A DNA stretch of 64,000 nucleotides from a virus. A program made the position numbers and the translations under genes. Position 1 is the stretch's first letter; each line of letters starts with the position of its first letter. Of the stretch, positions 8,305 through 59,443 are shown piece by piece. The notes under the pieces are model-generated. The model saw only the letters and a list, made by a program, of their open reading frames with translations. It was not told where the DNA came from and ran no database searches. The DNA is taken from positions 1-64,000 of IMG/VR virus record IMGVR_UViG_3300008629_000003. One strand, 5' to 3'.

Positions 8305-8339
8305 CCGCACCCGCACCCGCTCACACCTTGGAGGTTCAA

Positions 8340-8558: not shown

Positions 8559-8578
8559 CGCGCCCCGCGCATAGCTCG

Positions 8579-9128: not shown

Positions 9129-9145
9129 TTCGTCACAGCGCCCCT

Positions 9146-9421: not shown

Positions 9422-9424
9422 CCC

Positions 9425-10457: not shown

Positions 10458-10470
10458 TGCCCCTTATCCC

Positions 10471-10525
10471 TTGACAATCTCTTTACATTGTTACCTTTGT
10501 AACTGGGTTTTGGGTGTGCTATAAT
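10471..10525 (+). promoter_or_regulatory. Repeated early promoter, copy 7
   Basis: Box TTGACA (10471-10476), -35 TTGTAA (10497-10502), 17-bp spacer, perfect extended -10 TATAAT (10520-10525). Confidence 0.92.
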
Positions 10526-10570
10526 GTATATAGAACGGGGGGGATGACCCCCCCCGGTCTGGAGGTTCAA

Positions 10571-11310: not shown

Positions 11311-11325
11311 TCGCTCTTCCCGCAT

Positions 11326-11391
11326 CCCCCCCCGTACGGTTTGGCCGTCGGGGCTTTGGGGGTAGGGGAATCACCCCCTTTGGAGGTTCAA
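11326..11391 (+). repeat. CCGTACGG leader cassette
   Basis: CCCCGTACGG, TTTGG, CCGTCGGGG, then GGGGGTAGGGGAATCACCCCC and TTTGGAGGTTCAA ahead of ATG 11392. Confidence 0.85.
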
Positions 11392-35467: not shown

Positions 35468-36979
35468 TTAGGCCCGGCCGATGTTGTAGAAATACACATT
35501 CTGGAGGGCGTTGCGCACCTCGGGAACGCAAGCCGAATACATCAGAGGCCGGTCCACTTCAGCCAGAATCGACGCCAGCGCCATGATCCCCATTGATGGC
35601 CCCAGGCTTGCGACGGCCACGGTGTTCGTCGGCGTGTCACCACCGGTCAAGAAGCTGGCCGCATTGTCACGCGCCGCCCAGTATGCCCCGGGCTGCCCAT
35701 TGTGCAGAGCGCGCTCGGAAGCGGAAGTCACCCGCAGACCAAAGGCGTGCGAGGTGTTCGGACGGTAATGGTTCAGATCGTAGGATGTTACTGCGCCACC
35801 GCCCCCGGTGTTCGCTACCTCGAAAATGAACCACGCATCGGTCGAAGCCGAGTCCGCGTCCGTGCCGCGGTAAACCTTGAACGAGTCGGCCAAGGGGTTG
35901 CCCGGGGTGATCGTCAGAGTCACCTCTTGAGTCGCCGCGACGGTCGTGTAGCCCGTTGAAGGCGCACGCGTCCCGAGACTTTCGAGCTCTTCGACGGTCT
36001 CTGTGATCACCCAGAAAATCTCCCCGGCGCTTGCTGCATCCCACTTGGATACCCGGCTACCGCCCGGTGAGCCCGCGGAAGGCGCCGCAACCGTTGGACT
36101 CGTTGTCGGTGCACCAGTAATCAGCGCGCTGCTGTACTGCGGCGCTGCATAGATGGGGGACAAGGTGTTGTCCGACTCAAACCAAATTACCCGGCCCTGG
36201 GTCTGGATGCCTGCAATCTGCTGACCGACCATGTATGGCTTCGCAGAGATCGGCATCGGGAGACGCTGGGCGCCGTCCATAGAGCTCTCAAAGGTCTCGC
36301 GAGTCATCGGATCCATACAAAAGCAATTGAACACACCAAACAGCGTCGCGCTCTTGGCGGCCCGTTCGCGGATCGTGTCAATGGTCAGGGGTGATCCCTG
36401 CATGTCGATTGCGTGGGAGCCATAGGGAGACGTGCCCGTCGTTCCGTCTGTGCCTTCGCGGATCTGCTGTGCCAGTCCTTCGAATCGCAGTCCACTCGCT
36501 CCGAGGCGCGTCTGCGACGTGTCGGAAAAATAGAGGTTCCGGTTCTTCTTGAACAACATATTTTTGCGCAAGGCTACGCGCTCAATGTTCTGAGCGCCCG
36601 TGGTGCCGAGGGCGCGCTGCGTCTTCTCAAGCGCCGCCAAGAGAAAGGTCGGCCCAATCTCGCCCATGAGCTTGATGTTCTTGATCACGCGCTCGGTGCC
36701 GAAGTTGGTCTCAGGGGGCAAGCTCCGCTCCCCAAAAAAACCACTATTCCGGCTGAAGCCATAGGAGGTCACCTTGGTGAATTCGTGCTTGATGCTTGTG
36801 GCGGGCACGGACGGCAGCAACTTCATGAGCGTGAGCTCACCCGGGTCGCTTTCGTTCCAAAGTGTATTGTGGGCCTCGATTTCGAGGTCCTCTGGAACGA
36901 TATCCGTAATGTTTCCGCTGTGAACCGCCTTTTCCAGTGCTTGAAGCAGTTGGGCGGTCTGGGCTCCGTTGATTGACAT
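35468..36979 (-). CDS. Major capsid protein (503 aa)
   Basis: ATG 36979 has AGGACC upstream. It follows protease and scaffold genes. It begins MSINGAQTAQLLQALEKAVH, then a long helical N-terminal arm and a segment with VALRKNMLFKKNRNLYFSD. The C-terminal half contains an Ig-like strand-rich stretch (PSTGYTTVAATQEVTLTITP) that may be a surface-exposed insertion, then FLTGGDTPTNTVAVASLGP and MYSACVPEVRNALQNVYFYN. The HK97 fold is presumed. The length exceeds a plain HK97 capsid, in line with an added domain. Confidence 0.88.
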   Translation of the reverse strand: MSINGAQTAQLLQALEKAVHSGNITDIVPEDLEIEAHNTLWNESDPGELTLMKLLPSVPATSIKHEFTKVTSYGFSRNSGFFGERSLPPETNFGTERVIKNIKLMGEIGPTFLLAALEKTQRALGTTGAQNIERVALRKNMLFKKNRNLYFSDTSQTRLGASGLRFEGLAQQIREGTDGTTGTSPYGSHAIDMQGSPLTIDTIRERAAKSATLFGVFNCFCMDPMTRETFESSMDGAQRLPMPISAKPYMVGQQIAGIQTQGRVIWFESDNTLSPIYAAPQYSSALITGAPTTSPTVAAPSAGSPGGSRVSKWDAASAGEIFWVITETVEELESLGTRAPSTGYTTVAATQEVTLTITPGNPLADSFKVYRGTDADSASTDAWFIFEVANTGGGGAVTSYDLNHYRPNTSHAFGLRVTSASERALHNGQPGAYWAARDNAASFLTGGDTPTNTVAVASLGPSMGIMALASILAEVDRPLMYSACVPEVRNALQNVYFYNIGRA

Positions 36980-37038: not shown

Positions 37039-37782
37039 TTAGGCTTGAAGAGTCTTCACCGCCTCAATGATTCGCGTGTTGTTGGCGTCGTCGTATGCGT
37101 CGAACTTGCCCGTGTGCTGGTAGCTGCGCAGCTCGTCAGTTGATACGACATGACCCATCCGAGCCTTCGCTAGAACGTCCTTCGGAAACCCTGGCCCTTC
37201 GGCACGCTTGATCTCCTGACGCCGCCGATTCGACACGCGCGGGCGAGCGGGAGCAGTGAAACCCGTGTCCGGTACCGACATGAGAGCCTCATGCGTAGCG
37301 ACCACCGCTTTCCCCATGGGTGCCAGCGTTCCAGCCAACCCGCGGGCGAGCTGTTGATTGCTCTTGACCAGTCCCTTGATCAGCTTGCGGTCGAGCGCGC
37401 GGCCCTTCTCCAGTCGCTCGATTCGCTTGGACATAGCCGTCAGAAATTCCGTAGCGTCGATCGCGCCTTGATCGTAGTCGTTGAACTGACGAGACATTTG
37501 CATGTCTTCGAAGCCTGGCTCGTCGTCCTCTTCGTCTTCGTCGATCTCCTCTTCGTCTTCGTCGATCTCCTCTTCGTCTTCGTCGATCTCCTCTTCGTCT
37601 TCGTCGATCTCCTCTTTGGCCTTGGCCATGGGCTTAACAACCACGCCGAGCAAAGTGTTGAGGCCATCGACCAAGCCCTTCGCCATGGTTTGCATAGCTC
37701 CGTCGGTGTCGTCGGCGAGCTTGCCGATCTCTTCGATTTCGGCCGCTAGGGTGTCGGGATTGATTTTATCCAAGTTAGGCAC
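37039..37782 (-). CDS. Capsid scaffold-like protein with acidic tandem repeat (247 aa)
   Basis: I chose GTG 37782 because AAGGAG sits seven bases upstream; ATG 37806 has no ribosome site. Residues about 60-90 hold four copies of EEIDEDE from a 21-bp DNA repeat. The rest is helical, with coiled-coil potential (AMSKRIERLEKGRALDRKLI) and a basic C-terminal part (RPRVSNRRRQEIKRAE). Position between prohead protease and capsid, acidic repeats and helices fit a scaffold removed by the protease. Confidence 0.82.
   Translation of the reverse strand: MPNLDKINPDTLAAEIEEIGKLADDTDGAMQTMAKGLVDGLNTLLGVVVKPMAKAKEEIDEDEEEIDEDEEEIDEDEEEIDEDEEDDEPGFEDMQMSRQFNDYDQGAIDATEFLTAMSKRIERLEKGRALDRKLIKGLVKSNQQLARGLAGTLAPMGKAVVATHEALMSVPDTGFTAPARPRVSNRRRQEIKRAEGPGFPKDVLAKARMGHVVSTDELRSYQHTGKFDAYDDANNTRIIEAVKTLQA
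37527..37610 (-). repeat. Four 21-bp tandem repeats in the scaffold gene
   Basis: On the plus strand CCTCTTCGTCTTCGTCGATC is part of a 21-base unit starting at 37,527, 37,548, 37,569 and 37,590, followed by a partial unit. The unit is a codon multiple and encodes EEIDEDE. The number of copies is likely to vary by slippage without breaking the frame. Confidence 0.93.
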
Positions 37783-38653
37783 TTTGGCGCTCCTTGTGGT
37801 TTGCATATTGAAGGCACCAGCGAATCGCCTCCCGTCGGGAGATTTTAAATCTTCGCCGTACCTGTCGGATCAAGTGTTCCATCTTTTCGGTTTTGGTGTC
37901 GCCTGATACGCCTTCCAAATCTTCCTTAACGACTGCGCCGGTTCCCGCGCCACCCGCGGTAACCGCTTTGGCGAGTGTGCACCGCGCACCTTTGGGGCAT
38001 TTGCAGTTGCGGCAGGCATCGGCGCCGACCATCCCCTTGCGCAGAAAGGCTAACTCCATCGGCTCCAAGGTCGTGTCTGGATTGACCGGAACCTCGCACA
38101 CGGCCGCACAGGTCACCTTAGCGTAGAGGACACGCTTTCGACATGGCGACAACGCCATAGAACCCTCAGCGCTCAAGCCTAGAGGCCGCGGGGTGCCCTT
38201 GAGAAGCTGTGACAAGCTCCAGAAATGATCCGCACGATCAAGCTCGCCCGGGCTAGGCCATTTGTCGGGGGGCAGAAACTTCTGCCATGATTGGGGGTCC
38301 GTCCGGTCAAACAGGTGACCCGTAGTCCAAAATCCGACTTTGCCGTGCGACTTGCTCAACTCTGTGTCGCCGGCGTGAAACTCCAAGGTTGTCGGAACGC
38401 CAACAATGATCGGCTTTCCATCTGGGCCGACTATGTGGGTGTCGTTCCAGAATCCGCCTTTTATGTACTCTTCCCAATTGATATGTCCGAGCTCGCGCGC
38501 TGCGTCCATGATCTGATCGTCGCGATCGACGGTGGGTACCACGCCACCATCTGGGCCGATCTTCCCATAGGTCATCAGCCAACCCCCGAGCGGGCGCGTT
38601 GGTCGCCATCCGGCGCCGCGGCTTTTGACCAAGGGTACAACTTCGCCTTTCAT
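37775..38653 (-). CDS. Prohead protease, S78/XkdF-like (292 aa)
   Basis: I chose ATG 38653, which begins MKGEVVPLVKSRGAGWRPTR; earlier starts lie in or upstream of the terminator, though this start lacks a good ribosome site. The pattern fits a prohead serine protease: SKSHGKVGFWTTGHLF (His near 103 or 113) and PLGLSAEGSM (Ser161), as in XkdF-like S78 peptidases. A cysteine cluster (ACRNCKCPKGARC) and a basic helix are added at the C-terminus, unusual for the family. It should cleave scaffold and perhaps the giant head proteins. Confidence 0.83.
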   Translation of the reverse strand: MKGEVVPLVKSRGAGWRPTRPLGGWLMTYGKIGPDGGVVPTVDRDDQIMDAARELGHINWEEYIKGGFWNDTHIVGPDGKPIIVGVPTTLEFHAGDTELSKSHGKVGFWTTGHLFDRTDPQSWQKFLPPDKWPSPGELDRADHFWSLSQLLKGTPRPLGLSAEGSMALSPCRKRVLYAKVTCAAVCEVPVNPDTTLEPMELAFLRKGMVGADACRNCKCPKGARCTLAKAVTAGGAGTGAVVKEDLEGVSGDTKTEKMEHLIRQVRRRFKISRREAIRWCLQYANHKERQSA

Positions 38654-38701
38654 GCGAAAACTGTGTTTGTGGATTGGCGGATTCTGTGACGCTTCACACC
38701 T

Positions 38702-38747
38702 CAAACAAAAAAAGACCCACCATCCGAGAGCGAAAAAGGATGGTGGG
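38702..38747 (-). terminator. Rho-independent terminator inside the late block
   Basis: Read on the minus strand: CCCACCATCC (38747-38738), a 12-base loop, GGATGGTGGG (38725-38716), then TCTTTTTTTG. A perfect 10-bp stem with seven T's. It lies between the Com-like gene and the protease, about 50 bases before the protease start. Confidence 0.93.
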
Positions 38748-38796
38748 CCGTAGCTGTCGAGAGCCCGCACTCTCATAGCCGCACGCCTACATGTGA

Positions 38797-39072
38797 TCAC
38801 GTTTGTGGAGGATTGTCAACAACTCGGCGCACAATTACCCTTCTGCGGGCTTTGGGCGTGGCGGCGGCGGGCTCTTTTAGCGGCGCGGAGCTCAACAGCG
38901 GAACCTCTATGTCTGCGCCACAGCCACCGGGGCACAGCGCCACCACCCGGCCGTCGCTTCCAACCTTGATGATCCTGTTGGCCAACGTCCACTCCCCGCG
39001 TCGCTTTTTCCACAGCGATTTGTCGCAGGTGTGGCATTTCACCTCCACCGCGGCCGGATCAATCGCGGCCAA
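38797..39072 (-). CDS. Com-like zinc-finger protein (91 aa)
   Basis: The start is TTG 39072 with TAGAGG six bases upstream. It contains VKCHTCDKSLWKK and later ALCPGGCGADIEVPL, two Cys pairs in the arrangement of phage Mu Com, a small RNA-binding zinc protein that activates mom translation. The C-terminal tail is basic (KARRRVIVRRVVDN). No mom-like gene is visible here. It is the last gene before the internal terminator, whose RNA hairpin it might contact; that is a guess. Confidence 0.75.
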   Translation of the reverse strand: MAAIDPAAVEVKCHTCDKSLWKKRRGEWTLANRIIKVGSDGRVVALCPGGCGADIEVPLLSSAPLKEPAAATPKARRRVIVRRVVDNPPQT

Positions 39073-39301: not shown

Positions 39302-42300
39302 GCTGCCCCTTTGTGCTTTTCTTGGAGGGCCTTTTGGTACGCGAAGGCGACCCCGTGCTCGTCTAGGTTAGCGAGCGGGCTTTGGAATACATCGGCAAGC
39401 CCGCTTTTACGGCGCAATCTGCGGCGCGCGGACGTGTCGAATTCTGTGTCTGTGTGCCAATCGTGGACGTCCACATTTCCCGTTTGGCCTTGCCGGTACG
39501 CACGGCCGGATCTCTGGGCGTGACTCTTCATCGTTTGCGGGACGTCGTAGTGGTGGATCGCTTTCCCTCGCTGAAGATTGAGCCCCGCCTCTCCCGACGC
39601 CGTGGATACAATGACGTCGTGCTTCGGCGGGCCGCTCCCCTTCGGGTCGAATCCAAGCCTCACCGAATCGCGAGCCGACGCGGTGAGTCCCCCATGGTAC
39701 AGCGCGGAACGTAGACCGCGGCGGCGAAGCTCTTCGTGGATAAGTTTCGCGCCTGCCAGAGAATCGGAGAACACAATCGAAGGTTTCCCCTTTTGGCTGT
39801 TGCCGTCACGGTCCACATAGAGCCCGTGGTTTACGTCGTGCTCCAGCACGTCGGCCATTTGCTTGAGTTTTTGGTTGTGCTCTACCGGGGCCAGGTTTAC
39901 CGCGCGGCGCATAGCGGACTCTCGAATGATTCCGAGGCTCCGCGACAAGTCACGCGCTACGCGTTCGTGGTCGGCGGCGGGAATATCGAACTTTCCAGGC
40001 GCCGCCAAGAACTTCATCGCTTCCACATCTACGCCCCCACGTTGCCGGGCGGCCCTTGCTCGCTCGTACATTTTTTTGGTCTTGTCTACCAACGCCGCGT
40101 GCTTTCCCGTTAGCTTGATCGGTCCTTCGCCGGGCACCTTCCGTCCCTCTACGATCCGCGGGTTGGAGCTATCCAGACGCTTGACCCCTTCTGGCTTCAC
40201 GTGGGCCGTGTAAGTCATGTGGGCCATCTCGCGGCGGATCGCGTCTGGATTGTGCGCGAGGTCTTGTCCATATGCCTGCATGAATTCGTGAGCGTCTTGG
40301 TACTTCACGGGATCGAGCTTCGATGCCATGGCGAAGACTTCGCGCTCATCGTTTTTGTGCGGCGTAGCCGTCCCGGCCAAGTAGTGTGTACGATTGATCG
40401 GGTGACTTACGGCGCTATTCATCATCGCGACCCCGCTTGGGTTGTCTCTCCACGTCCCAAGGTGCGCCTCATCCTCATACACCATGTGCTTTGGGATCCC
40501 GTGGGCATCGAAAGCCTCACGCATCCACCGGGCGCGGGTCTCGGGCGTGGCGCTTTCCATGTCGGTCCTCATTTGCTTGGGTGTTCGGCCATGGTGTTCG
40601 CTCATGAGCTGGAGGGCAGTGTCGCGGAATGCCTGGTGTGTCATCACCCGCATGTGCAACGAATCGTCTTTGAGCATTGCCACGCGGTCGGCGTGCTTTT
40701 TGCCAACGCCTGTGCTCCAATTGTATTGGCCCGGCTCGGTAAATTGAAGCATTGCGCTATCAAATTGCGATTGGACGGCAGCGGGCACCAGAAACAAACC
40801 GTGCTTTGTGTCGCCAGCGCTGTGTAGGTGTGTGAATCCCCCGATCCCGATCGCCGTCTTACCCGTACCAGTCCCAAGGAACGCTCCAACCGATCCAGAT
40901 TCCTGCAACATCTTGATCACGCGCTGGCCGTGGACACGCTCTTTATCCATGCGGATACCAAACAGCGGCACTTTTTGGCCAGCTTTGAAGCCCTTGCCGA
41001 CCTTGCTTACCATGGATGTTAGCTGCTCTTCGGCTTGTTTGCCGAGCGTGTGGCGCTCGCCTTTGCCGGGGTCCGGTAGCTTCCGCGCTTCTTTTTGGGG
41101 CGGCGGTTTTGCGCTGAACATCGCCATTTGGTTTTGCCTGTCGATCTCCTCGTGAACCAAATGCTCAGACGCTTTGCGCTTTGCCGCGCCCTTTCCGCCC
41201 ATATCCGCGAATCCGCCGCGCTCACGTTTTTGCACCTTGGCGTACATGCTTCGTTGTTCCGATAGATACTGGTCCAGCTCATCCGGCGTCGACGTGCCTT
41301 TTATGTGCCGCTCTTTGTTCGGGATTTCTTGAACGCCAACGCGCAACGATCGGCCCGTGAGCTGACCGTGGTGGCGCTGCATCGTTTTTGCGAAGTCGCC
41401 GCGGATCTCGTGCTGCATAGCGGTCTGGGCGAGCTCCAGAGACGTGTGCGCGTTTACAAACTTCCCCCACGCGGTTGGCTGCTTGGCGACCTCGTCTTTG
41501 ATTTCACGAACCCGAGCGGGATCTGGGTTGTCTCCGAGCGCGGAGATCGCATCTTGCAAGCTGGCGCGGCGGTATTTTTTGAGAACTTCGTCACGGTCGC
41601 GCGCCCAGTCCTTCCACTCTGGGGACGGCCCCGGCGCCATGAAGGACATACTCAGCGTCCCCCGATCCGGGTTTGGCTCGGGGCCTAGCTTTTGCATTTC
41701 GGCCATGTATCGGGTTTCATCGACCTTTGTTTTCTTGTCGATCCCCATTCGGTCATAGTAAAAATCTCGGAGCGCGGCCTTGTCGTCGTGCGTCATTTCC
41801 GCCAACGGCTTGAAGGCTGCGACCGCGGTTGGGTGTTCCGCAAGCGACCGAAATACCGCCTCGTGGGTATTTGGGTCGTTCACCTGCAAATCTTGGGAGT
41901 GGATAGCCCCGGCCGTTTTGCCGTAGGTCTTCTCCATGAACCGATCCGAAAGCCCCTCGAAATGTTCCGACACCTCCTCATACTTGACCTTTTTCCCGTC
42001 CTCCCCTCTCATCGGAAAGAGCTCACGCACGTGATCGATGTATTGCTGACGGTCGGGTGCTCGTTCTATGTTCTGCGGGCTCAACAGGTCGGTCATTACG
42101 GCCGACGGGTGCTCGCCCTCTGCCAGCCTAGATCCAATGTGGTCCTCTAAGCCTTGCCGCACGTCTGAACCCAGGTCCAAATCCTGATACAACGGAGGCG
42201 ACTCGGGGACCGGGTCATTAAACGACGAATTTGCACGGCGCGCGATTCCCGTTGGTAACCAGCCCTCCTCGTCGTGTTCGCCGTTACGAATCGCAACGGC

Positions 42301-45300
42301 ACGCGCCCGCTTTTCCATTTCGGCCTTCGGCGTCTTTGTGATCAAATTATCCCAGGAACCGCTCGGGATACTGACCTTTTTCTGCTTGTGGTCGACTTGG
42401 TAATGCTCGGGCCGCAATCCAACGGAATGAAGCCACTGGAGCGTCGTTGCTGTGTCGCCCTTGACTTCTAGTTGGTCGGGTAGACGCGTACGAAATGCGT
42501 GGCCCATGGTTGCCGTCGCTTCCATCTTGCCAATTGCCGCCCCGACGGCCGACTGTGCGTCGTCGATGTCTTGGTTGTAGGCGTCAAGCTGCAACAACGC
42601 CGTCTCAATATCCCCGGCCGTCTCCACCGCTGTTGACAGGTCGGGGACGATCTTGTTTGCGGTGGCGATGGCATCGGCCGCCACCGGTTCCAATCGGTCG
42701 GCGTGATACCCCTCCAGCGCGTGCAAGACCGTGGATCCGTCGTGGCCGTCGGACTCCAGCGCAAACCGAGTCAGAATCGCCGCATTTTTCAATCCTATGG
42801 CCTCGACTGTGCTTCGGTCTAGATAGCGTTGACCACCAATACCAAGAGACACATCGGCGATTTCTGAATAATGCGCCTGGGCCACGGAGTTTAACGCCAC
42901 CGAGCTACCCGTATCGTGCAGACCCAAAAGCTGATTAGTGAGCGACCGCTGGGTCTGCTCTCGTATGGATTCGGTTGTTTTAGTGTCTAGCGCCTCGCTC
43001 ACGTCGATCTTGAAAGCCGACCGAGCCGCTAGATAGTCGCCCTTCTCGATCTCCTTGTTGAGCTTGCGGAACTCTTTCGACTTCTGGGCGAGCTCCACCG
43101 CGTCCGACAACACCTCGCGCATTTCTGCGAGCTCCACCGGCTGGGGGGGGGCTTTTTCTGCCTCAAGCAACCCCAGACGTTTGGCCGTCCCGGCCGCGCG
43201 GGCAAATGACCCGACCATGTCTCCATGCGCCAGGGCCTTCATTGCGGTGTGAGGCGATTCTTCTTTTTCAATTTCTGCAAAACGCTTTGCGCGCGACTTC
43301 TCCACCTCAAACCGGCGCAGCTTGGCGGCGGCGGCGCGCTGGAGCTCTTCTTTGCCGTCGTCGGCCGTTTCTTCCAACCCTCGCCGCTTCATTTCCTCAC
43401 GTACGGCCGGGTGCTTTAGCGCCGCGGCGTCGCCTTCTGATGCGGCCTTTAGCAGTCGCGCGTCTTGCAGGGCTTGAAGCGACCGTCGGGTCACCTCGTC
43501 GCTGGCTTTTGGTGGCGTCGAAGGTATTCCGCCTTTGTCATCCCGACCGCCTAATCGCTCCAGCTTTTTGTCGGGGCTTGGTTGAGAGTCGATGATCTCC
43601 AGCGCAGCCTCAGCCGCTTTGGACCCAACTTCCGACTTTCCCGCTGATCGACGTTGCTTGCGTTTTCGCCGGTCGATTTTTCTCTCTTCTCGTTCGCGGT
43701 TATCTAGTTGCAACGCCAACGTCGCCAACTCTTGCGCCTTTGCCGCTACGGCCGGCGTTTCTTTCATCGCTTGCGCGACGTTGGCTTTCCAACCCGCTTG
43801 CTGGCCTTTTGCTTCGGCCACCTTCTCGGCAATCTCGCGCGCTTGCGCCTTTGCTTCTCGTAGCTGTTTGGCATGGTGCCGCGAAAGCACCAGATTTTTG
43901 GCACCCTTCGGCATGTGGATCAAGTTGGATTCGTCTAGATCCTCGGATACGTTGCCAGCTTTGGCGCGAACCTTTTCGATAAAATCCCGCTCGGCGCCGC
44001 GCTTGGCATCTTTGACCTTTTGCTTGGCCTGCTTTTCGTCCTCAATAGCCGCCGCGCTCATTTTGCTTTTGCGCTTTTTCTCTTCGACGGCCTTCTTCTT
44101 TCGCCGGCCTTTGGCCTCTTTCTTGTACTCCTCCTCCGATTTAATGTCCTTGAGTTTGAGGTAGCTTAGCTTTCCACCGGCGCCGCCGACAATACGGTGA
44201 ACCCCTTCGCCGGCCGGCTCAATGATCACCGGCACCCCGCGCTCATCTTTGCCATTCGGGTGCACGGTGATCCACCGCTGGCCAGGCTTGAGAGGGAGTG
44301 AAGCTTTTCGCATGGGTTGCGGCAACAGACCCGAAAGCTTGTCATAAGTCGCCTGGTATTTCTCGGTCTCCTCTTCGGACGCAAGAAACCACATGACGCT
44401 GGACAGGTGGTCAGCCCACAAACGCCACCGACGCGACGCTCTTTCGATCCGCCCCGGGTCTCTTGACTCCAACGCGCTCTCTAGGATTTTTCGGCGGGGT
44501 CGCTCTTGCTTCTGTAGCTCTTGGACGTTTTCTGGAAACAGGGCGTGGTCGTGGCGATAGTAGAACGAAGAGAGCTCCTCCACGTCGGTGGCTTCGTCGC
44601 CCCCCTCAACTGCTTGGCCTAGATCCATCATCTGGAGGTGACCGTTTGCATCTCGGCCGACCTGGATCTGATCGTTGATTGTCCAGCCGTGGTCGTGCAT
44701 GTGCAACACAGCGTCGCGGACGTGGTCTAGCTCGTCGGGGGTCAGGTCTTTGGCTTCGTCCAAATACGGCCGAATCATCCAAAACCGGCCGTCGTAGACG
44801 CCGCCGCTTGCCTTTTGCACCATCGGCAAATCTTGCAACGCTTTGCGAGCGAGGTATTCGTTGCGCAAATGATCGATCGCTTCGGCTGGCGTTCGGTGGC
44901 CGTCGCTTTCGGCCTGAAACGGCGTCGTGGTTGAAACCTTAACGACGTGGCCGCCCACCCGATACACGACCCCGTCCTGCCCTTTTCCTAGATACTTGCC
45001 GCCACCGCTCAACAGCTTTTTGATTACGGGGTGTGGAGCTCCCTCGGGGTCGTGGTGGAGCTCTTTACGCATGTCGTGAATATGGTGCGGGACCGATTGT
45101 GTCGGCACCTTGTACGGCCGGCTAGTGTGCTCCCCGCCGTGGGTAAACGAGCGCTTACGGGTGAGCCATGTATGATTTTCGTCCTGCTTGTGAACATGAA
45201 TCGACCCGCCGCCGTACGCGTTCGGAGTTTCCCACGACGCGCCGGGCTTGACGTCATTTTCGTGGACCTTTTGCCAGCGCTTGACGCCCGTCTTGGTGGT

Positions 45301-45705
45301 CTTGAGTACAAGCCCCGGCCGGTTTTTTAGGCGCTGGCCTTTCTGCAACGCCTTTGGCACCCACGCCCGCCAATTCTTGATCGCCGACACTGGGAACCGC
45401 TTTTCCCCCTTTGGCGAATGTGCGTCGTGGACCGTGTATTGGCCGTGTTCGATCCGGTGGGATGACCCATCCTCGGCAATGGCCCGCACGCCCGCGGCGC
45501 CCGACGATTGGCTCAGGCCACGGTACGCGTTCCCGTTTGCATCGGCCCAGCGTAGATAAGCGCGACGGCCCCAGCCAACTGACGCATAGCGGTGCTTGTG
45601 GGGCACCTTGACCGAAAACGATTCTCCGCTATCTCCGCAGGTTATGTCCAGCTCGACGTGGCTTGGCCTTGCTGTCGTGCAACACCTACAAGGACGAAAG
45701 GGCAT
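39298..45705 (-). CDS. Giant virion protein: protein-kinase-like domain plus SNF2 helicase (2135 aa)
   Basis: ATG 45705 has AAGGTGACAC upstream. The N-terminus has an EHGQYTVHD module (about 85-95) and a GVKRWQKV module (140-147). Residues 236-400 look like a protein kinase: Gly loop YLGKGQDGVVYRV (238-250), Lys256 (HVVKVS), Glu283, HMHDHGWTINDQ with Asp345, and MDLGQA with Asp361 in the DFG place. After MRKAS (465-469) comes a small beta module shared with the 1273-residue helicase, then ~1000 helical residues. The C-terminal ~530 residues are a SNF2 helicase: LGTGTGKTAI, YEDEAHLG, LAGTATPHKN, STASGEAGLNL, QRSGRAYRQG. It resembles DarB-like proteins delivered by P1, without a methylase. Confidence 0.88.
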   Translation of the reverse strand: MPFRPCRCCTTARPSHVELDITCGDSGESFSVKVPHKHRYASVGWGRRAYLRWADANGNAYRGLSQSSGAAGVRAIAEDGSSHRIEHGQYTVHDAHSPKGEKRFPVSAIKNWRAWVPKALQKGQRLKNRPGLVLKTTKTGVKRWQKVHENDVKPGASWETPNAYGGGSIHVHKQDENHTWLTRKRSFTHGGEHTSRPYKVPTQSVPHHIHDMRKELHHDPEGAPHPVIKKLLSGGGKYLGKGQDGVVYRVGGHVVKVSTTTPFQAESDGHRTPAEAIDHLRNEYLARKALQDLPMVQKASGGVYDGRFWMIRPYLDEAKDLTPDELDHVRDAVLHMHDHGWTINDQIQVGRDANGHLQMMDLGQAVEGGDEATDVEELSSFYYRHDHALFPENVQELQKQERPRRKILESALESRDPGRIERASRRWRLWADHLSSVMWFLASEEETEKYQATYDKLSGLLPQPMRKASLPLKPGQRWITVHPNGKDERGVPVIIEPAGEGVHRIVGGAGGKLSYLKLKDIKSEEEYKKEAKGRRKKKAVEEKKRKSKMSAAAIEDEKQAKQKVKDAKRGAERDFIEKVRAKAGNVSEDLDESNLIHMPKGAKNLVLSRHHAKQLREAKAQAREIAEKVAEAKGQQAGWKANVAQAMKETPAVAAKAQELATLALQLDNREREERKIDRRKRKQRRSAGKSEVGSKAAEAALEIIDSQPSPDKKLERLGGRDDKGGIPSTPPKASDEVTRRSLQALQDARLLKAASEGDAAALKHPAVREEMKRRGLEETADDGKEELQRAAAAKLRRFEVEKSRAKRFAEIEKEESPHTAMKALAHGDMVGSFARAAGTAKRLGLLEAEKAPPQPVELAEMREVLSDAVELAQKSKEFRKLNKEIEKGDYLAARSAFKIDVSEALDTKTTESIREQTQRSLTNQLLGLHDTGSSVALNSVAQAHYSEIADVSLGIGGQRYLDRSTVEAIGLKNAAILTRFALESDGHDGSTVLHALEGYHADRLEPVAADAIATANKIVPDLSTAVETAGDIETALLQLDAYNQDIDDAQSAVGAAIGKMEATATMGHAFRTRLPDQLEVKGDTATTLQWLHSVGLRPEHYQVDHKQKKVSIPSGSWDNLITKTPKAEMEKRARAVAIRNGEHDEEGWLPTGIARRANSSFNDPVPESPPLYQDLDLGSDVRQGLEDHIGSRLAEGEHPSAVMTDLLSPQNIERAPDRQQYIDHVRELFPMRGEDGKKVKYEEVSEHFEGLSDRFMEKTYGKTAGAIHSQDLQVNDPNTHEAVFRSLAEHPTAVAAFKPLAEMTHDDKAALRDFYYDRMGIDKKTKVDETRYMAEMQKLGPEPNPDRGTLSMSFMAPGPSPEWKDWARDRDEVLKKYRRASLQDAISALGDNPDPARVREIKDEVAKQPTAWGKFVNAHTSLELAQTAMQHEIRGDFAKTMQRHHGQLTGRSLRVGVQEIPNKERHIKGTSTPDELDQYLSEQRSMYAKVQKRERGGFADMGGKGAAKRKASEHLVHEEIDRQNQMAMFSAKPPPQKEARKLPDPGKGERHTLGKQAEEQLTSMVSKVGKGFKAGQKVPLFGIRMDKERVHGQRVIKMLQESGSVGAFLGTGTGKTAIGIGGFTHLHSAGDTKHGLFLVPAAVQSQFDSAMLQFTEPGQYNWSTGVGKKHADRVAMLKDDSLHMRVMTHQAFRDTALQLMSEHHGRTPKQMRTDMESATPETRARWMREAFDAHGIPKHMVYEDEAHLGTWRDNPSGVAMMNSAVSHPINRTHYLAGTATPHKNDEREVFAMASKLDPVKYQDAHEFMQAYGQDLAHNPDAIRREMAHMTYTAHVKPEGVKRLDSSNPRIVEGRKVPGEGPIKLTGKHAALVDKTKKMYERARAARQRGGVDVEAMKFLAAPGKFDIPAADHERVARDLSRSLGIIRESAMRRAVNLAPVEHNQKLKQMADVLEHDVNHGLYVDRDGNSQKGKPSIVFSDSLAGAKLIHEELRRRGLRSALYHGGLTASARDSVRLGFDPKGSGPPKHDVIVSTASGEAGLNLQRGKAIHHYDVPQTMKSHAQRSGRAYRQGQTGNVDVHDWHTDTEFDTSARRRLRRKSGLADVFQSPLANLDEHGVAFAYQKALQEKHKGAA

Positions 45706-49758: not shown

Positions 49759-50132
49759 AGTTTAAACGTCCCAGGGTACCGGGTGACGGGGGCAGCATAG
49801 GACCGAAAGACTCCGCGGTCGGGAACCTTGCCCTCTCGGAATTGTGCCACAAGTTGAGGCGCTAGAGCTCGGGCCGCTTTCATCGTTGGGCAAATGATAT
49901 GGTAGGGGAGCGCGTGGTTCGGTGTTTCAACCGACAAAACGCCGACACCCGCCGCGGACTTCACGAACCGAAACATCAACCCGTCAACGCGGAACGAACG
50001 CCCACCCTGCGACGCTCCGGCCCCGCCCGTTGGAGACCAAACCGTCTCCACCGCTTTGGCGAGCTTGGCCAAGCCGATGCGGCGTCGAATGGTCAGCCTT
50101 ACCGGAATCCCGTATCCATCAACTAGCTTCAT
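49755..50132 (-). CDS. Hypothetical protein (125 aa)
   Basis: ATG 50132 overlaps the topoisomerase gene stop and its own TGA overlaps the helicase start (ATGA both sides). It begins MKLVDGYGIPVRLTIRRRIG; basic, with a strand-rich middle (RSFRVDGLMFRFVKSAAGVG) and helical end. No family is recognised. Tight coupling on both sides marks it as part of the giant-protein unit. Confidence 0.78.
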   Translation of the reverse strand: MKLVDGYGIPVRLTIRRRIGLAKLAKAVETVWSPTGGAGASQGGRSFRVDGLMFRFVKSAAGVGVLSVETPNHALPYHIICPTMKAARALAPQLVAQFREGKVPDRGVFRSYAAPVTRYPGTFKL

Positions 50133-53100
50133 TTTTTGCCTCGTTTAAACGGGTTGTGCTTTTTGAGCTTTTCCAGGTATTTGGCGAACGCGCTCTCCTC
50201 TTTGGACAATACCCCGCGCGCCTTTTCCATAGTCTTGCTCCCTGATATCGTGAGACCTTGCCGGTAAGCTTCCACCACGGTGGGGTCGATGTAATTGTCG
50301 AGCGCGGTCTTTACTATGTGGCCCCATTCCGTCTTAACTTTCGGGCCATCTTTGGCCGCTACGACCTTGTGGTCGGTGTCTCCCAGAGCCTTCTGGTACG
50401 CCTTGCGCTCCTTTGCCGAGTGAAACCCCACGTGGCCGCCCGCGTAGACCTTGCCCCCGTGCTTCTTTGCCATTGCTCGATCTGGCTCTGCGTGCTTGAC
50501 GAAGTGCTTCCGCGTTTTCCCTTTTTTGTGCCCTAGCGCTTTCGCTGCTGCCATTGCGGCCTTCTCGATCTTGACCTCTGCGTCTTTGGCGCTTGTTGGC
50601 GGTCCAAGCTTGTCGGCTGCTTGCGCGAACAAATTCGACGCATGGAACGTCCGAAAGTCTTTGACTGTGCCGCCGTTGGTGTGAGCTCGGACATAATTTC
50701 GAAGAACCGCCGCGCTAACCGGCGCGGATGTGCCGTTCGCCCGAACATATTGGAACAGGTTTTTAGACGCGCCTGGCTGCTTTAGAAGGTGCGCCACGAT
50801 CCGCGCCACCTTTGGGTCTTTCATCGTTTTAACCTGCGGCACGCCTGCCTTGCCGGCGTATCGCATGGTCACCGTGTCACCATTGACCCGCACATGCGAG
50901 GATTTTAGGGTCGTCACCCCATACGATCCCTTGGCGGCGCTCGACGTGTTTCCCGCGCGAATTAGGGTCGCATCAACCAGCGCCACCATCGCCGCCGAAA
51001 CGGCATCTCTCGACGTTGGCGCTAGGTCTAGGTGGTCCTGTATGATGCCCCTCGCGTGCCCGAGACCCGTGGTGAAACGGGCCATTTTACGGAACTTTTC
51101 CTCCGCATTTTTTACTAGGTACGCATTCCGATAGCTGTTGACCTTTTTCCCCTGGGCGTTGCGCCAACTCATAGAGCTGTTCTCTTCCGGCTTAGAGATC
51201 GTGACCTTTGTTCCGAGGGGTGGATACTTGCTGTGCTCTGGAAATCGCTTTTGCAGATCGGCAAGGTACTTCTTGTCGGCGCTCTTTTTCTTCGCGGCGC
51301 GACGCTCGGCCGGCGTCGCCTCTTTTTCACCGGTGGCGGCTTTTCGCGCCGCGACGGCCGGGTGGCTGTCTTGGTGCTTCGCGTAGTGCCCATGGTCGAC
51401 CTGCTCTTGCTGGCCGGTTTTTTTGTCGATGACCGTGACGCCCTTTTCGCCGGAGCTCATGGTCACGCCGCGGCGCACCTTACCAGATTTGGAGCGGTAC
51501 TTTACGACTTCGCCCTTTGGTTTTCTCGGCTCTTTTTTTTTTTCAGTCTTGGGCGGGCGCGCTTGTGCTTGTGGGTCTTGCCCCGTCTTTTGCCACCGAC
51601 GGACGCCCGGGTTTTTCTTTGATGCGACAAGCTGTTGGCCCTGGTGCTTACCTGCGCCGGCCTGGGCCGGGTCCACCTTGGGCTGACCGTTGCCGACGGC
51701 CTTTCTCATTACAAGCCGGAGCCCAAACCGGATCCGCGCTTTGTTGAGCTCTTCCCAAGCATCGTGTTTAGCCCACGCGCGAGACTCCGCGGCCGTTTGC
51801 CTTTTTTCGCCGCGCCTGTAATCTGCCTCCTTCACTTCTTGGCGCATCTTTTTGTAATGTTTGGTTTCCAGTGCTTTGAGGCGCTTCTTTTCAGCGGGAC
51901 TCAACACGCGCTCGGTTTTCACGCGGGTGATGACGGTTTGCTTGTCGCCTCGCCATTCGTCGTGTTTCTTGATCGTGCCGTGCAGCTTGTACGAATGGCC
52001 GACTTTGAACGGCGCTCGGCCTTTGGGTGCGTTTTCATATGGCTGGGCGGACGGAGCGTGATCGTAGGTGGGCGAGCTTGAGAAGTATTTTAACGTTTGC
52101 CCGCTTTTCGTCTTGAAGGTCAACAGGGTGGTCGTGCCATATTGCCCGTGGATGTCGCGCGTTGACACCAGCGTCGCCTGTTGTGCCGGTGTGGGCGGCT
52201 TGACCCCTTTCTTGCGCTGTGCCTGGGTCATTGCCAACTCCCCAAACTTTTCGCCGGGCTTCCCTATGTGCTTTTGCGGTGGCGGGGCCTTCTTTGCGGG
52301 CGCGGCTTTTTCTGTTGCCTTCTTTTCGGCCTCTCTCTTTAGGTGGTTGTCGTACGCGTTAACCGCTGACACCGCCACGCCCATGTGGTTCTCGGGCACG
52401 CCCGTGTTGCCTGCTCCATGGTTTTCGCCCAAGGCGCGTAATTTTTGATAGTACCCAGAACGGCTATATGCCGGGATCTTTTTCATCCACGCGATCACCT
52501 TTTTGGCTTTCTCGGCGGCTTTCTTGTCTGTTCGGGCCGATGACCATACTCCGACGCTCTGCTGGCTTTTCAGGAAACTACTTGTGCTCTTGACTTCCGA
52601 TCCCGGCCGGGAATTCGCATCCGCGCGGGCGGCCGACATATACCCATCGTGCGGGTTTCCTGGGTGGTCCAACCAGTGAGCCGTCGCCTGTATGATTGCA
52701 GGAAGGGCAACCTCTAGTTTCCCGCGCGGCTCCTTCGCGTAACTGTCAAACTCTTTTGTGTCCCAACTGGATAACCACTCCGCAGCCGTCGCGGCGGTTT
52801 TGGGGTCTTGACCGAAAAAATCACCTAGACACGTTCGGCCGACTTGGACGTGCTTGTTGTGGTCATCCTTTAGGACGTGCAGCTTGGACCGTTGGCGGTT
52901 TTTTCCGCAAAAATCACAATGTGAGCCCGACTTGTGAAATTGGTGCGGCACTTTTTGGCCGCGGTGGTGGTTGACCATGTTTCGCTTCGCGCCGGGCTCA
53001 AAGCTTCCCACGTAAGCCCAGCCGTGGGACTTCATTTCCGGCCCGGTGATTTTGACCGCCACGACCGGCACCTTTTGTCGCACCTGTTTCGTGTCGCGTT

Positions 53101-53950
53101 CGCCCATCATGGAGTAGCTACCCTCCACGGGTTCCCCGGGATGCTCCCACGGCACCGTCCGCAACATCGTGGCCATTTTCTTGCCCAAGATTTCCATATG
53201 CGGCGGCTGTAGTCCTAGCTTGATCGCTCGCTTTTGCATTCGAGCAAATTTCTTTTTAACCGTCGCTAAGTTTTCTTGTGGAATAGCGTGCAGGCTAGAG
53301 CGCGGCCCTTCATTAGCCGCCTGGATCGCCTTCTCTTTGGCGTCTTTTAACTTCCCGTGGCCAACGCTGACCCACTCCACATGATCGTCGTCGAAGACGT
53401 GGCCGACCTTCCACTTCTTCCCGGCCTTCTCAATGACCGTCGTGTTGTCGCCGACGGTGACTAGGTAGCCCCCTTTGCCGTCGCGCTTCGTTTTCGACTT
53501 GATCGGCGCCGGCTCCTCTACATCACCCTCAGTGTACCGCTGCCTAGCCTGGGCACGCTGGGCCTTAATCTTGGCCCAGACGTCGTCTTCCTTTTTCTCG
53601 GGCGCTGTCTTTTTGGCCGGTGCCTTTTTCTTCGCCGCGGCTTTCTTCTTCGCCGCGGCTTTCTTCTTTACCGGTGCTTTCTTCTTCGCCGGCGTGGCGG
53701 CTTTGGGCTCGTCGTCGAAAATCTCGGGAAACAGAATCCGAAAAGGATCCATCTCTTCCGGCTTCTCGGCCGGCTTCTCGGCCGGCTTCTTCTTGGGCTT
53801 CTTCTTGGCGGCTGGCTTGACCTTGTCTGGATACTCGTAGCGCCATTTTCCGCTCGGGAGCTTTTTCTTCCACCCGCCTTTGTTGCCGCGGGTGACGCGT
53901 TGCCAGCCAACGCCCGGGGGCTTTGCCGATTTCAGGAGAATGATCTTCAT
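50129..53950 (-). CDS. Giant virion protein with type IB topoisomerase domain (1273 aa)
   Basis: I chose ATG 53950, overlapping the previous stop (ATGA). The N-terminus carries a GKWRYEYPDK module and a histone-H1-like K/A/P tail (about 43-120). A zinc motif CDFCGKNRQRSKLHV, then HVQVGRTCLGDFFG lies at about 345-380. Further modules are GVRRWQK (783-789) and VDHGHYAKH (851-859). Residues about 890-1235 are a type IB topoisomerase: LIRAGN (Arg998), YAGKAG (Lys1034), KDFRTFHAS (Arg1100, His1103) and DNYIDPTVVEAYRQG (Tyr1220). About 70 extra residues separate the LGH segment from the tyrosine motif. It may relax or bind DNA during or after ejection. Confidence 0.87.
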   Translation of the reverse strand: MKIILLKSAKPPGVGWQRVTRGNKGGWKKKLPSGKWRYEYPDKVKPAAKKKPKKKPAEKPAEKPEEMDPFRILFPEIFDDEPKAATPAKKKAPVKKKAAAKKKAAAKKKAPAKKTAPEKKEDDVWAKIKAQRAQARQRYTEGDVEEPAPIKSKTKRDGKGGYLVTVGDNTTVIEKAGKKWKVGHVFDDDHVEWVSVGHGKLKDAKEKAIQAANEGPRSSLHAIPQENLATVKKKFARMQKRAIKLGLQPPHMEILGKKMATMLRTVPWEHPGEPVEGSYSMMGERDTKQVRQKVPVVAVKITGPEMKSHGWAYVGSFEPGAKRNMVNHHRGQKVPHQFHKSGSHCDFCGKNRQRSKLHVLKDDHNKHVQVGRTCLGDFFGQDPKTAATAAEWLSSWDTKEFDSYAKEPRGKLEVALPAIIQATAHWLDHPGNPHDGYMSAARADANSRPGSEVKSTSSFLKSQQSVGVWSSARTDKKAAEKAKKVIAWMKKIPAYSRSGYYQKLRALGENHGAGNTGVPENHMGVAVSAVNAYDNHLKREAEKKATEKAAPAKKAPPPQKHIGKPGEKFGELAMTQAQRKKGVKPPTPAQQATLVSTRDIHGQYGTTTLLTFKTKSGQTLKYFSSSPTYDHAPSAQPYENAPKGRAPFKVGHSYKLHGTIKKHDEWRGDKQTVITRVKTERVLSPAEKKRLKALETKHYKKMRQEVKEADYRRGEKRQTAAESRAWAKHDAWEELNKARIRFGLRLVMRKAVGNGQPKVDPAQAGAGKHQGQQLVASKKNPGVRRWQKTGQDPQAQARPPKTEKKKEPRKPKGEVVKYRSKSGKVRRGVTMSSGEKGVTVIDKKTGQQEQVDHGHYAKHQDSHPAVAARKAATGEKEATPAERRAAKKKSADKKYLADLQKRFPEHSKYPPLGTKVTISKPEENSSMSWRNAQGKKVNSYRNAYLVKNAEEKFRKMARFTTGLGHARGIIQDHLDLAPTSRDAVSAAMVALVDATLIRAGNTSSAAKGSYGVTTLKSSHVRVNGDTVTMRYAGKAGVPQVKTMKDPKVARIVAHLLKQPGASKNLFQYVRANGTSAPVSAAVLRNYVRAHTNGGTVKDFRTFHASNLFAQAADKLGPPTSAKDAEVKIEKAAMAAAKALGHKKGKTRKHFVKHAEPDRAMAKKHGGKVYAGGHVGFHSAKERKAYQKALGDTDHKVVAAKDGPKVKTEWGHIVKTALDNYIDPTVVEAYRQGLTISGSKTMEKARGVLSKEESAFAKYLEKLKKHNPFKRGKK

Positions 53951-56900
53951 GCTTCGTCCCCAATGTGGACATAGTGTCCATGTTCGACCCGGTGGAGCTC
54001 TCCGGTCTTGTGGTCCATAACCGACACGCCGTCCAATCCTGACGCGTGCAGGTCGCCCGTACAGGGCTCTCCGGTCTTGGGGTGGCGGTACCTCACCCCC
54101 TTGCCCTTGGAACCCCCTGGGGTGCCGCGGTGCGCCTTGCGCAGCATGACACGGGCTTTCTGTAGACTGCTTGGGCCAAGCTTTTTGTTTTTCGCCAGGT
54201 ATTTCAACACCGCGGCGCGATCGCTCCACTTGGCTTTGGGCAGGTGAATCTGAAAGAAACTTGCCCCCGAGTCTTTGTCCACCGCCGAAACAAACCACTT
54301 GTCGGGCTTGTCCACAACGTACGCGTGGATCTCTCCGTCGGCAAACGTCCCCAACAACTCCATGCCGGCCACATTTGGCACGTTGGGCGCTGGCGGGTGG
54401 GCGGACATAGGCCCGTGGTACTGCGGCGTTACTTTTGGCTTGGCGTGCCCGCTCGTTTCCTTCCACGGCCTCGTATGCTCCGCGTCGGCCCATTTACCCC
54501 CGCGGGGTCCGAGGAAGGGTCCAGCGCTGGCCTTACGCAGCATGACACGGGCTTTCCGTAAACCGTGCTCATACTCGTAATCTTCGCGGGCATCTTTTGC
54601 GTCTCGGTATGCGTTGACGTTCGCTAGTAGCGATTTCCTGCTAAACGCGACGACCTCAGACGCTTTTGAGGTAGCAGCGCCCGGGTTCTTTACGATGATC
54701 CCGTCGTGCCCCTGACTTATCAGCTTGCGAACGTCGGCGTGCGTTAGGTCTTTTGGGCTGATTTCTCCCTTGTTTTCTACTACCTTGGGGTTGCTTAGGG
54801 CTACGTGGGTTTTGTGTAGGTTGGGTCCGTATCGGTTGGCATATTTCCGGCGTGGAGACAGGTAAATGCCGGCCTCGGACCCAGCGTCCGCTCCGTGAAT
54901 AGTTCGACCGTGGTTCGCCTGATAGACCGTCAACGGCCCGCCGTCTTGACCCGTTAAAGGGATCGGCGGTCCATGTTGTTTATAGACGCTCGACAAGTCG
55001 TGATCGGCGGCGGGGTGTGACGCAGCGGCGGTGGATTCCTTCCACGGCCTTGTGTGCTCCGCGTCGGCCCACTTACCACCGCGGGGTCCGAGGAAGGGTC
55101 CAGCGCTGGCCTTACGCAGCACAAACCGAGCGCGGCGCCCCTTGGTCCGCATTCGCTTGTCGAGCTCTGCGTCTAGAGCGGTCTGGAGTAGGCTGTGCGC
55201 TTTTCTCATGTTGCCACCGCCCACGGCCTTGACCCTCACTTCGTACGTCCCGTCTTTTCGCCGCTTGACCTTTTCCACCTGAATTTTTCCGCCGACCACC
55301 ACCTCATGCTCGGCGTGGAACGTGGACAGCCCGCTAATGTCCGTCCCTCGTTTTGTCTTCATGGTCAGGATAACCGGGTGACGTTTTGTCGGTTTGGTGT
55401 GGCCCTCGTCCTTTTGCTCGGTTGCTGCGAAGGTTTCGGCGGCGGATCTCTGCTTAGACCAACTCGACATCTCGCGCAAGTCTATCTCTGCCCCTTTGGC
55501 TAGGCCCTTTATTGCCCCGGGTGGTAAGCGCACGCCGCGGTGGAGCTCTACGGCGTAATCACCCTCCACCTTGGCCAGCGTCTTGAGCACTTTGTAAGCT
55601 TGCTGGTGTAATTGCTTCGTGCTTTCGGCTTTCCATTGAAGGGTCTGGACTGGCTTTGCAAGCTTTTTTTGCCATTGCTTCGGGTCGCGCACGGACTTCA
55701 CATTGCCGGCCGTCCATAGCGTTAGCGCATCGAGCAAGGCCGCGTGCGTAGCAGGCAACGCGGCGCGGTGCCATTGAAATTTGAGCGCCTCTTCGCCGCC
55801 GTGGTACCTCGCGAGGCTAAACAGCTTCCACACGGTGTCGGGGTCTTTTCCTGACTTGCGCGCGGCCTCTTTGACCGATTTTCTTCCTGCGGCAACACAG
55901 TCGTCAAATGTCGCGCCCCCGGCGTTCTGCGCTCTCTTAAACGCCATCCGATAATGGAGACTCAACCCATGAAAATCATATCCAACATGCTTGAGGGCTT
56001 GTTTTGCTTCCTCGTTGGGAACGTGCGACATATTCGAAACAGGGTGATATTTCTTTTCCTCTTCAAGCTCGAAATAGGCTGCCTCTAGTCCTTTGGTGGT
56101 CCAGTTTACGGCGCCCCCCGGGGGCATGGTTCGCACCCGAATCTCTTGGTCTGGATACCAGACCTGCGTGTGCGTGCTCCACTTGCCCTGGAAGACTCGA
56201 CTATAGCCAAGCCCATCACCTAACGGCTTCCATTCGCTTGCGGCTCCCGTGCGTTGGGCTTCATCGGCCGGGGGTCGGGCAAGGTCGGCGGCTTCTTTTA
56301 GGTCCGACGCGCGGACTTTTTCGTGGTGAGCTTTATACTTTTCGAGGAATTCGGCCTCTGTCAGCTTGAGCTTTTCCCGGTATGGCTTGAGAAATCCATG
56401 GTCCTGCGCGTCTTTGTAGTGTCGCCACAACCCGACGGACATACTGTCCAGACCATTCCCTTCGTAATCGTGGTAGGCGTCTTGTATCCATTCGTTTAGC
56501 GCTGCCTCGTGGGCGGCTGGGCCGGCTTCTAGCGCGGCCTGGCGCTTTGCTTCCGTCTGCTTGTCGCGCGCAGTCTTCCACGCGCCACGCATCGCCTTTA
56601 GGATGTCACTCCGCGCCACCCCCTTGATCTCCTTTCCGATGACAGGCAAAAGATCGGCAATCTTGCCACCCCGCAGGAGCAACATTTGCGTTTTGCCCTC
56701 GTTCAAATCTGGCACCAACTTTTCCATTTCGGGCCATTTCTTTACTAAGAACATCTCAAGGCGTCGGCGGGCCTCTACGTCTTCTTTGTGGTGGTGGTGG
56801 TGGCTTTTGTAATAGGCGAGCGCATGTTTCCAAGCCCCCGCGGCGTCGTCCCCCCATTCTTCGGGGAGGCTTGGCTTCATGTCGTCGAAACGCATGTGAA

Positions 56901-59021: not shown

Positions 59022-59443
59022 TAGCCTGCCGGTGGGGGATCGTTTCGGAACTGATAATAGAGCTCCACAGGCGTCCCCGAGCCAATACCCGCCGCCGTTG
59101 ACACATACGCCCCCACATCTCCGTCGCCCCGCATAAGCTTGGGCACGATCACATTGCCGGAAGGAACAACCAGCTCCCCCTCTTCAACCCACCCGTCAAG
59201 CGTTGTCATCCCTTTGCCGGGTGATGACTGAACCCACCGACCAAACTTGACGGTCACGCCTGTTACACCTGCGGGCACCTTGACTATCCACATAAGCGAA
59301 GAGCGCCTCCACGATTTTATGCAATGGAGCACGTCTGTTGGCGGTGACTCCACGGCCACCACCTTCTTGTACGGTTCGGCCACGTCGGCCGCTGACTGCC
59401 CCTGATAGCGGGGAAACTGTGTGCCTGATTGTGCGCTACCCAT
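59021..59443 (-). CDS. Hypothetical head-region protein (140 aa)
   Basis: ATG 59443 overlaps the portal end by eight bases. It is strand-rich (SLMWIVKVPAGVTGVTVKFG; GELVVPSGNVIVPKLMRG) and begins MGSAQSGTQFPRYQGQSAAD. It is located between portal and MuF-like genes. No family is recognised; a head or portal accessory role is inferred from position. Confidence 0.77.
   Translation of the reverse strand: MGSAQSGTQFPRYQGQSAADVAEPYKKVVAVESPPTDVLHCIKSWRRSSLMWIVKVPAGVTGVTVKFGRWVQSSPGKGMTTLDGWVEEGELVVPSGNVIVPKLMRGDGDVGAYVSTAAGIGSGTPVELYYQFRNDPPPAG

Follow-up and report, generated by a model that had tools for sequence, protein, structure and literature searches.

A divergent domain of predicted protein-kinase fold in a giant SNF2 motor protein encoded among phage head genes

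Results

Organization of the locus and of the 2135-aa protein

We analysed a 64-kb stretch of DNA (hereafter the window) out of an IMG/VR virus record of 72,693 bases. It encodes a polyvalent protein of 2135 aa, consisting of an N-terminal domain, a module with a kinase-like domain, an RWITVHPNG domain, a long middle part and an SNF2/SF2 motor (Table 1). Upstream and on the same strand lie the genes for terminase, portal and minor head protein, and then those for the ART-like, topoisomerase-IB and second SNF2 proteins. Downstream follow the prohead protease, a 255-aa protein, the major capsid protein and the tail genes.

Table 1 Features of the window discussed in this work; residue numbers refer to the 2135-aa protein
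Feature	Position	Strand	Basis
Major capsid protein	35468..36979	(-)	
Prohead (head maturation) protease	37775..38800	(-)	Weak profile match, conserved position
Polyvalent protein, 2135 aa	39298..45705	(-)	Domain composition given in the text
SNF2/SF2 motor, aa 1594-2125, motifs intact	39331..40926	(-)	phrog_62, Helicase_C, motif positions
RWITVHPNG domain, aa ~475-530	44116..44283	(-)	Start point of homologous helicases in other phages
Module with kinase-like domain, putatively inserted, aa ~118-465	44311..45354	(-)	Absent here from the five closest helicase relatives
Domain of predicted protein-kinase fold, aa ~224-395	44521..45036	(-)	21-sequence alignment A6, AlphaFold2, Foldseek/VIA-align kinase matches
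Asp374, invariant, near helix start after a very short post-DxG segment	44584..44586	(-)	AlphaFold2 model and alignment
D-x-G metal-binding motif, Asp361 to Gly363, both 21/21	44617..44625	(-)	A6 column counts
Catalytic loop Asp345-x-x-Gln348, both 21/21	44662..44673	(-)	A6 column counts
Lys256, beta3 lysine, 21/21, then family motif STTVP	44938..44940	(-)	A6 column counts
Glycine-rich loop LGKGQDGVVYR, aa 239-249	44959..44991	(-)	Family consensus LGKGDDGLAFxV
N-terminal domain, aa 1-110	45376..45705	(-)	Common to helicase relatives L006, L007, L075, L106, L121
Second SNF2-type motor protein, 1273 aa	45937..49758	(-)	Profile matches
phrog_2319 and topoisomerase-IB catalytic core, 1454-aa ORF	50129..54493	(-)	Profile matches
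1049-aa protein, weak ART-like matches, two linkers GPFLGPRGGKWADxxHTxPW	53947..57096	(-)	Weak matches, pattern
Minor head (head morphogenesis) protein	57861..59021	(-)	Profile match
Portal protein	59436..61286	(-)	
Terminase large subunit	61678..63552	(-)	

The motor occupies the C-terminal quarter of the 2135-aa protein. In profile searches it matched phrog_62 (E 5e-58) and Helicase_C (E 3.5e-13), and its motifs are intact, with Walker A at residue 1611, DEAH at 1745, AGTATP at 1777 and motif VI at 2065. These matches bear out the preliminary description of this DNA, which had proposed a kinase-like domain fused to an SNF2 helicase in a virion protein, as far as the helicase is concerned.

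The location in the head, which had been part of the same proposal, is well supported and probable, judging from gene order and relatives. The helicase gene of the phages PHB04, Cumys and Mecenats66 lies just ahead of the protease and major capsid protein genes (in PHB04, the intervening genes are unnamed). In most loci of the kinase-like family described below that provide enough context, the kinase-bearing ORF is situated between the portal and the minor-head gene or beside the latter, and in two of them (L141 and L147) a single ORF holds both the minor-head domain and the kinase.

The neighbouring genes have features of their own. The head module encodes two different large SNF2-type motors, adjacent to each other. 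The 1454-aa ORF of the head region combines phrog_2319 with a eukaryote-type topoisomerase I core (PF01028, E 6e-25); its true start is probably internal, at MKIILLKS. The 1049-aa protein contains twice, at residues ~658-690 and ~851-885, a linker of the pattern GP[FY][IVL]GP[RK]GGKWADxxHTxxW, a motif that is frequently preceded by Lys-Ala or Lys-Ser. The pattern was hit 17 times in loci of the kinase-like family (L135, L137-L140, L143-L145, L147) and not once in the helicase-only loci examined; a role as an interdomain signal for processing or packaging is conceivable. At the start of large head-region proteins, a few hydrophobic residues also tend to precede Lys-Ala or Lys-Ser, as in MKPILFLKAS, MKRLMIKAS, MRIVLGKAH and MKIILLKS (in helicase homologues, e.g. 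at L002 7959 and L005 7989, and in the window ORFs starting at 57096 and ~53950). By analogy to P1 DarB, this type of N-terminus is a candidate capsid-targeting signal.

A module absent from the closest helicase relatives

The distance from the N-terminal domain to the RWITVHPNG/helicase part is 11-118 aa in the five closest relatives of the helicase (L006, L007, L075, L106 and L121) and ~378 aa in the window protein, where a module of ~345 aa is found. The helicase proteins of Bordetella phage PHB04 and Morganella phage Mecenats66 begin almost at RWITVHPNG. Read most simply, this comparison points to insertion of the kinase-like module as a cassette; loss of the module from all five relatives would be less economical. 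The G+C content and GC3 of the module resemble those of the rest of the gene, and composition therefore gives no sign of a very recent import. Note that L006 has its helicase homologue in two separate reading frames (6472-8475 and 7905-12572), owing to a frameshift in the sequence or in the gene.

Identification of the kinase-like family

All residues on which the kinase proposal had been built are present in the ORF: GKGQDGVVYRV starts at residue 240, followed by Lys256, Glu283, TINDQ at 342-346 (including Asp345) and DLG at 361-363. The order of these motifs is not due to chance, since an ordered kinase pattern appeared in none of 2000 residue shuffles of the 2135-aa protein and in no other of 14,017 ORFs from related loci.

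Used alone in single-sequence searches, the kinase-like domain had no Pfam match at E ≤ 10, none in PHROGs, NCBIfam or PADLOC, and only chance-level matches among PDB sequences. Five family members had no match to the Pfam kinase profile (PF00069) in hmmscan at E ≤ 10, and the Pfam profile of the RIO family was matched neither by the domain nor by these members. Searches of phage and plasmid records by tblastn, and of viral and genome contigs for exact peptides of the domain, returned nothing usable; DNA pattern hits for the Gly loop were rejected as unrelated sequences.

The way to the family was indirect and led through alignments of the helicase part to relatives among viral contigs and genomes. 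In a MAG labelled 'uncultured proteobacterium', the helicase (L106) is 42% identical to that of the window, and an 8-kb contig of the same MAG carries the gene for a protein of 1534 aa whose kinase-like domain shares 42% identity with that of the window (E 1e-37). Seeded from this pair, the family grew to four and then to 20 viral-contig loci. Hits were collected with short peptide patterns (NDQIQ[VL]G and others) and confirmed by tblastn; several members, caught by the Gly-loop pattern alone, lack NDQIQ and have the same active-site columns. The alignment of the family (A6) comprises 21 kinase-like sequences. When 284 genomes from the phylum of the MAG were searched, the family was matched in no genome other than the MAG. 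PF00069 was absent from 20 helicase relatives, and the kinase-like family was matched in none of 50 helicase-relative records, in a search run without a positive control. Weak phmmer hits in L016 and L073 were rejected as helicase proteins lacking the kinase pattern, and matches of creatine kinase and superoxide dismutase to the family profile look like chance.

Conservation is concentrated at the active site

Conservation over the 21 sequences is concentrated at active-site positions. Among the positions counted, Gly240-Lys241-Gly242, Val255-Lys256, Pro262, Gly340, Asp345, Gln348, Gly350, Gly355, Asp361, Gly363 and Asp374 are invariant, and Asp244 and Gly245 are each conserved in 20/21. Every sequence thus has the motif set of the kinase-like superfamily (Gly-rich loop, beta3 Lys, catalytic Asp and D-x-G Asp) in the right order. 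In close pairs the family is under purifying selection, with dN/dS of about 0.04 for L137/L138 and 0.23 for L152/L153.

The canonical HRD-x-K-x-x-N loop and the alphaC Glu are missing from this picture, with D-x-x-Q in place of the former. Asp345 is preceded by Asn in 12, His in five, Arg in three and Gly in one of the sequences, and the position two before it is hydrophobic in 20/21; therefore, the family has no HRD motif. TINDQ, described earlier as an atypical HRD, is not a corrupted HRD: it belongs to a family-wide D-x-x-Q-x-G loop. Glu283 had been taken for the alphaC Glu. This assignment did not hold, because the position is Gln in 17 sequences and Glu in only two (Asp and Asn in one each), so that the alphaC Glu is not a feature of the family.

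Gln348 is located 13 residues ahead of Asp361 and three, not five, residues past the catalytic Asp. In PKA, the metal-binding Asn171 is at the same distance from Asp184. Gln348 may thus replace the metal-binding Asn in a loop shortened by two residues. As the turn that follows Gln348 lacks one residue in some members, spacing alone is no proof of the replacement.

Predicted fold

With the 21-row alignment, AlphaFold2 produced a model of the domain with pLDDT 87.1 and pTM 0.75. The single-sequence model was poor (pLDDT 47), and its structural matches, mostly helical bundles, were discarded as meaningless. In the alignment-based model, the elements appear in kinase order: beta1 to beta3, alphaC, beta4, beta5, alphaE and two short strands that flank the catalytic and DxG loops, directly followed by a helix near Asp374. 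The segment from DxG to this next conserved helix has only ~10 residues, and the later helices are of lower confidence. The position of Asp374 would be alphaF-like in this model.

Foldseek against the PDB returned 322 chains at E ≤ 0.001, and the matches listed are kinase or pseudokinase domains. VIA-align placed RIO2 of A. fulgidus (1tqi) first (Z 12.7, rmsd 3.7 over 165 residues), followed by the kinase-homology domain of RNase L (Z 12.6) and IRAK4 (Z ~12). With RIO2, RNase L, GAK, IRAK4 and PknB all scoring within about one Z unit of each other, the comparison does not favour any particular kinase family. The best match in BFVD, a protein of an uncultured Caudovirales annotated as 2'-5' RNA ligase superfamily (E 5e-16, TM 0.74), is probably a further member of the kinase-like family. 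A profile-profile comparison with 12 ordinary bacterial kinases aligned the same motifs but was weak (P 0.011, probability 3.8%); the kinase call therefore rests on the predicted fold together with the motifs. Residues ~224-395 are thus predicted to form a two-lobed protein-kinase fold, in agreement with the initial proposal; the different fold that would have spoken against it did not appear in the model.

Domain partners of the family

Family members are fused to InPase, ddrB-ParB, DarA_C, GGDEF, PAPS reductase, ART-PolyVal, sigma70 regions, GNAT and C5 methylase domains, and in L143 to an SNF2 motor. The hallmarks of polyvalent proteins, as given by Iyer et al. 2017 (PMC5512222), fit these fusions. 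The window protein itself unites at least two unrelated activities, a predicted kinase fold and an SNF2 motor, and its gene lies near virion genes, between portal/minor head and protease/major capsid protein. Two of the fusions stand out. In the 1534-aa protein of the bacterial MAG (L132, 3043-7644, minus strand), the kinase-like domain is accompanied by InPase and a C5 cytosine methylase. In L134 (3870-16823, plus strand), it occurs within an ORF of 4318 aa or more together with GNAT, ART-PolyVal and regions 2 and 4 of sigma-70, and the product of this ORF is possibly a packaged sigma factor.

Discussion

Proposed function and alternatives

The explanation that we consider probable, with considerable reservation, is that the 2135-aa product belongs to the DarB-like polyvalent proteins of phage heads, that a cassette with a divergent, apparently reduced kinase domain has been inserted between the conserved N-terminal domain and the SNF2 translocase part, and that this kinase acts on a host protein. 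The protein would most likely be packaged in the capsid and enter the cell along with the DNA; for packaging and co-ejection we draw on P1 DarB and other virion precedents. The SNF2 motor would then act on the incoming DNA. The kinase-like domain would bind ATP via the Gly loop, Lys256 and Asp361, and Asp345 would serve as the catalytic base for phosphorylating a host protein, probably a defence or gene-expression factor hit in the first minutes of infection.

Other readings of this scheme concern catalysis and the protein substrate. The conserved Lys, the two Asp and the Gly loop argue for catalysis, whereas the missing HRD His and catalytic-loop Lys, the Gln at the Asn position and the variable alphaC Glu would also suit a pseudokinase or another ATP-dependent reaction. 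A pseudokinase would transfer no phosphate; it would bind ATP or a partner protein and serve the SNF2 motor or capsid packaging as a scaffold or allosteric switch. The kinase-homology domains of RNase L and CASK indeed rank with the best structural matches. Of the Lys, the catalytic Asp and the metal Asp, one is usually lost in pseudokinases. Lys256, Asp345 and Asp361, as well as the family-specific Gln348, are all invariant here, and the domain also occurs beside unrelated enzyme domains in proteins with no SNF2 part; we therefore regard a pseudokinase as unlikely, if a serious contender. That the kinase fold performs another chemistry, such as AMPylation or phosphorylation of a small molecule or nucleic acid, seems improbable to us. 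The altered loop, D-x-x-Q-x-G, which is shorter than D-x-K-x-x-N by two residues provided that Gln348 corresponds to the Asn, would agree with it, and the InPase fusions (L132, L135, L147) would fit a pyrophosphate-releasing reaction, but InPase is generally known in phage polyvalent proteins and is present in some members only, and protein kinases are the best structural matches.

Two further alternatives concern the identity of the domain and the place of the protein. The domain could belong to Kinase-PolyVal (PF18762) and have been missed by profile searches, given that it resides in the same kind of protein and may have a reduced C-terminal lobe, as described by Iyer et al. 2017 (PMC5512222). 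However, PF18762 matched neither the window's record nor the 20 family records at E ≤ 10, and hmmscan of five family members gave no match to it. Moreover, the conserved Gln at the N-lobe end described for Kinase-PolyVal (PMC5512222) has a possible counterpart in the FQIKP strand of most members, but not in the window protein (Trp) nor in L130, L148, L136, L152 and L153. Membership is thus distinctly improbable. In 379 genomes of the MAG's phylum, PF18762 gave a single sub-threshold match, too little for an alignment of Kinase-PolyVal. Least credible of all is an intracellular, non-virion protein that stands in the head operon by happenstance: the nearest Pfam families of the motor are general helicases, yet the head-gene context is conserved across many phages, kinase and minor-head domain share one ORF in two of them, and P1 and JC1 provide precedents (PMC9024508, PMC9144972).

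A bolder generalization, rather unlikely in our estimation, would have a capsid-delivered family of kinase fold with a D-x-x-Q loop perform a non-canonical ATP-dependent transfer on host factors at DNA entry, either phosphorylation by a new geometry or AMPylation, the cassette being swapped between phage head proteins.

Returning to the packaged kinase as the preferred explanation, our analysis suggests that phages with this family bring a kinase-like enzyme into the host cell along with the DNA that they inject. Gene order and fusions tie to phage heads a family that sequence searches of Pfam, PHROGs, NCBIfam, PADLOC and the PDB miss. If active, the enzyme would arrive ready-made, ahead of any phage gene expression, and its targets could reveal which host defences or control points are the first worth attacking. 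With its invariant D-x-x-Q loop, the family also lends itself to a clean test of the limits of change in the kinase catalytic loop.

Comparison with known systems

T7 gp0.7 protein kinase offers a possible parallel in its logic, phosphorylation of host proteins early in infection; it is made after infection and is not packaged. RIO kinases, which provide the best structural match, share the fold only: the identity to RIO2 is 19%, and the catalytic loop differs. RIO kinases lack a canonical activation segment and keep an H-x-D-x-x-x-x-N loop. In the phrog_62 SF2 helicases of Bordetella phage PHB04, Thermus phages Cumys and Lalka27b and Morganella phage Mecenats66, the RWITVHPNG domain, the middle part and the motor are homologous to the window protein; these phages were among the 50 helicase-relative records in which the kinase-like family was not matched.

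Closer in kind are P1 DarB and the DarB-like gp69 of JC1, giant proteins with an SWI2/SNF2 motor encoded among head genes. P1 DarB is found in the head, a reporter reaches the capsid when it carries the first 30 residues of DarB, and DarB is believed to be delivered to the cell (PMC9024508); co-ejection of P1 Dar proteins with the DNA has been reported (PMC12810830), and JC1 virions contain the DarB-like protein (PMC9144972). P1 DarB has an adenine methylase and no kinase, whereas the window protein would carry the inserted kinase-like cassette instead: of the P1 DarB set (LPD36, adenine methylase and SNF2), the SNF2 part is present, and no profile match to a methylase was found in the 2135-aa protein.

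Polyvalent virion proteins with kinase domains (Kinase-PolyVal) and with SNF2 motors have been known since 2017 (PMC5512222), so that a kinase-helicase fusion in a head protein is less unusual than first thought; what does stand out is a family outside the curated profiles. Like Kinase-PolyVal as described there, it appears as a kinase fold, possibly with a reduced C-terminal lobe, in polyvalent proteins beside late genes. Unlike Kinase-PolyVal, it has neither a PF18762 match nor HRD, and it is marked by the D-x-x-Q loop and by motifs of its own, LGKGDDG and VVKVSTTVP. On sequence grounds, this divergent kinase-like family appears to be new, set apart from Kinase-PolyVal by the PF18762 profile, within a known kind of system.
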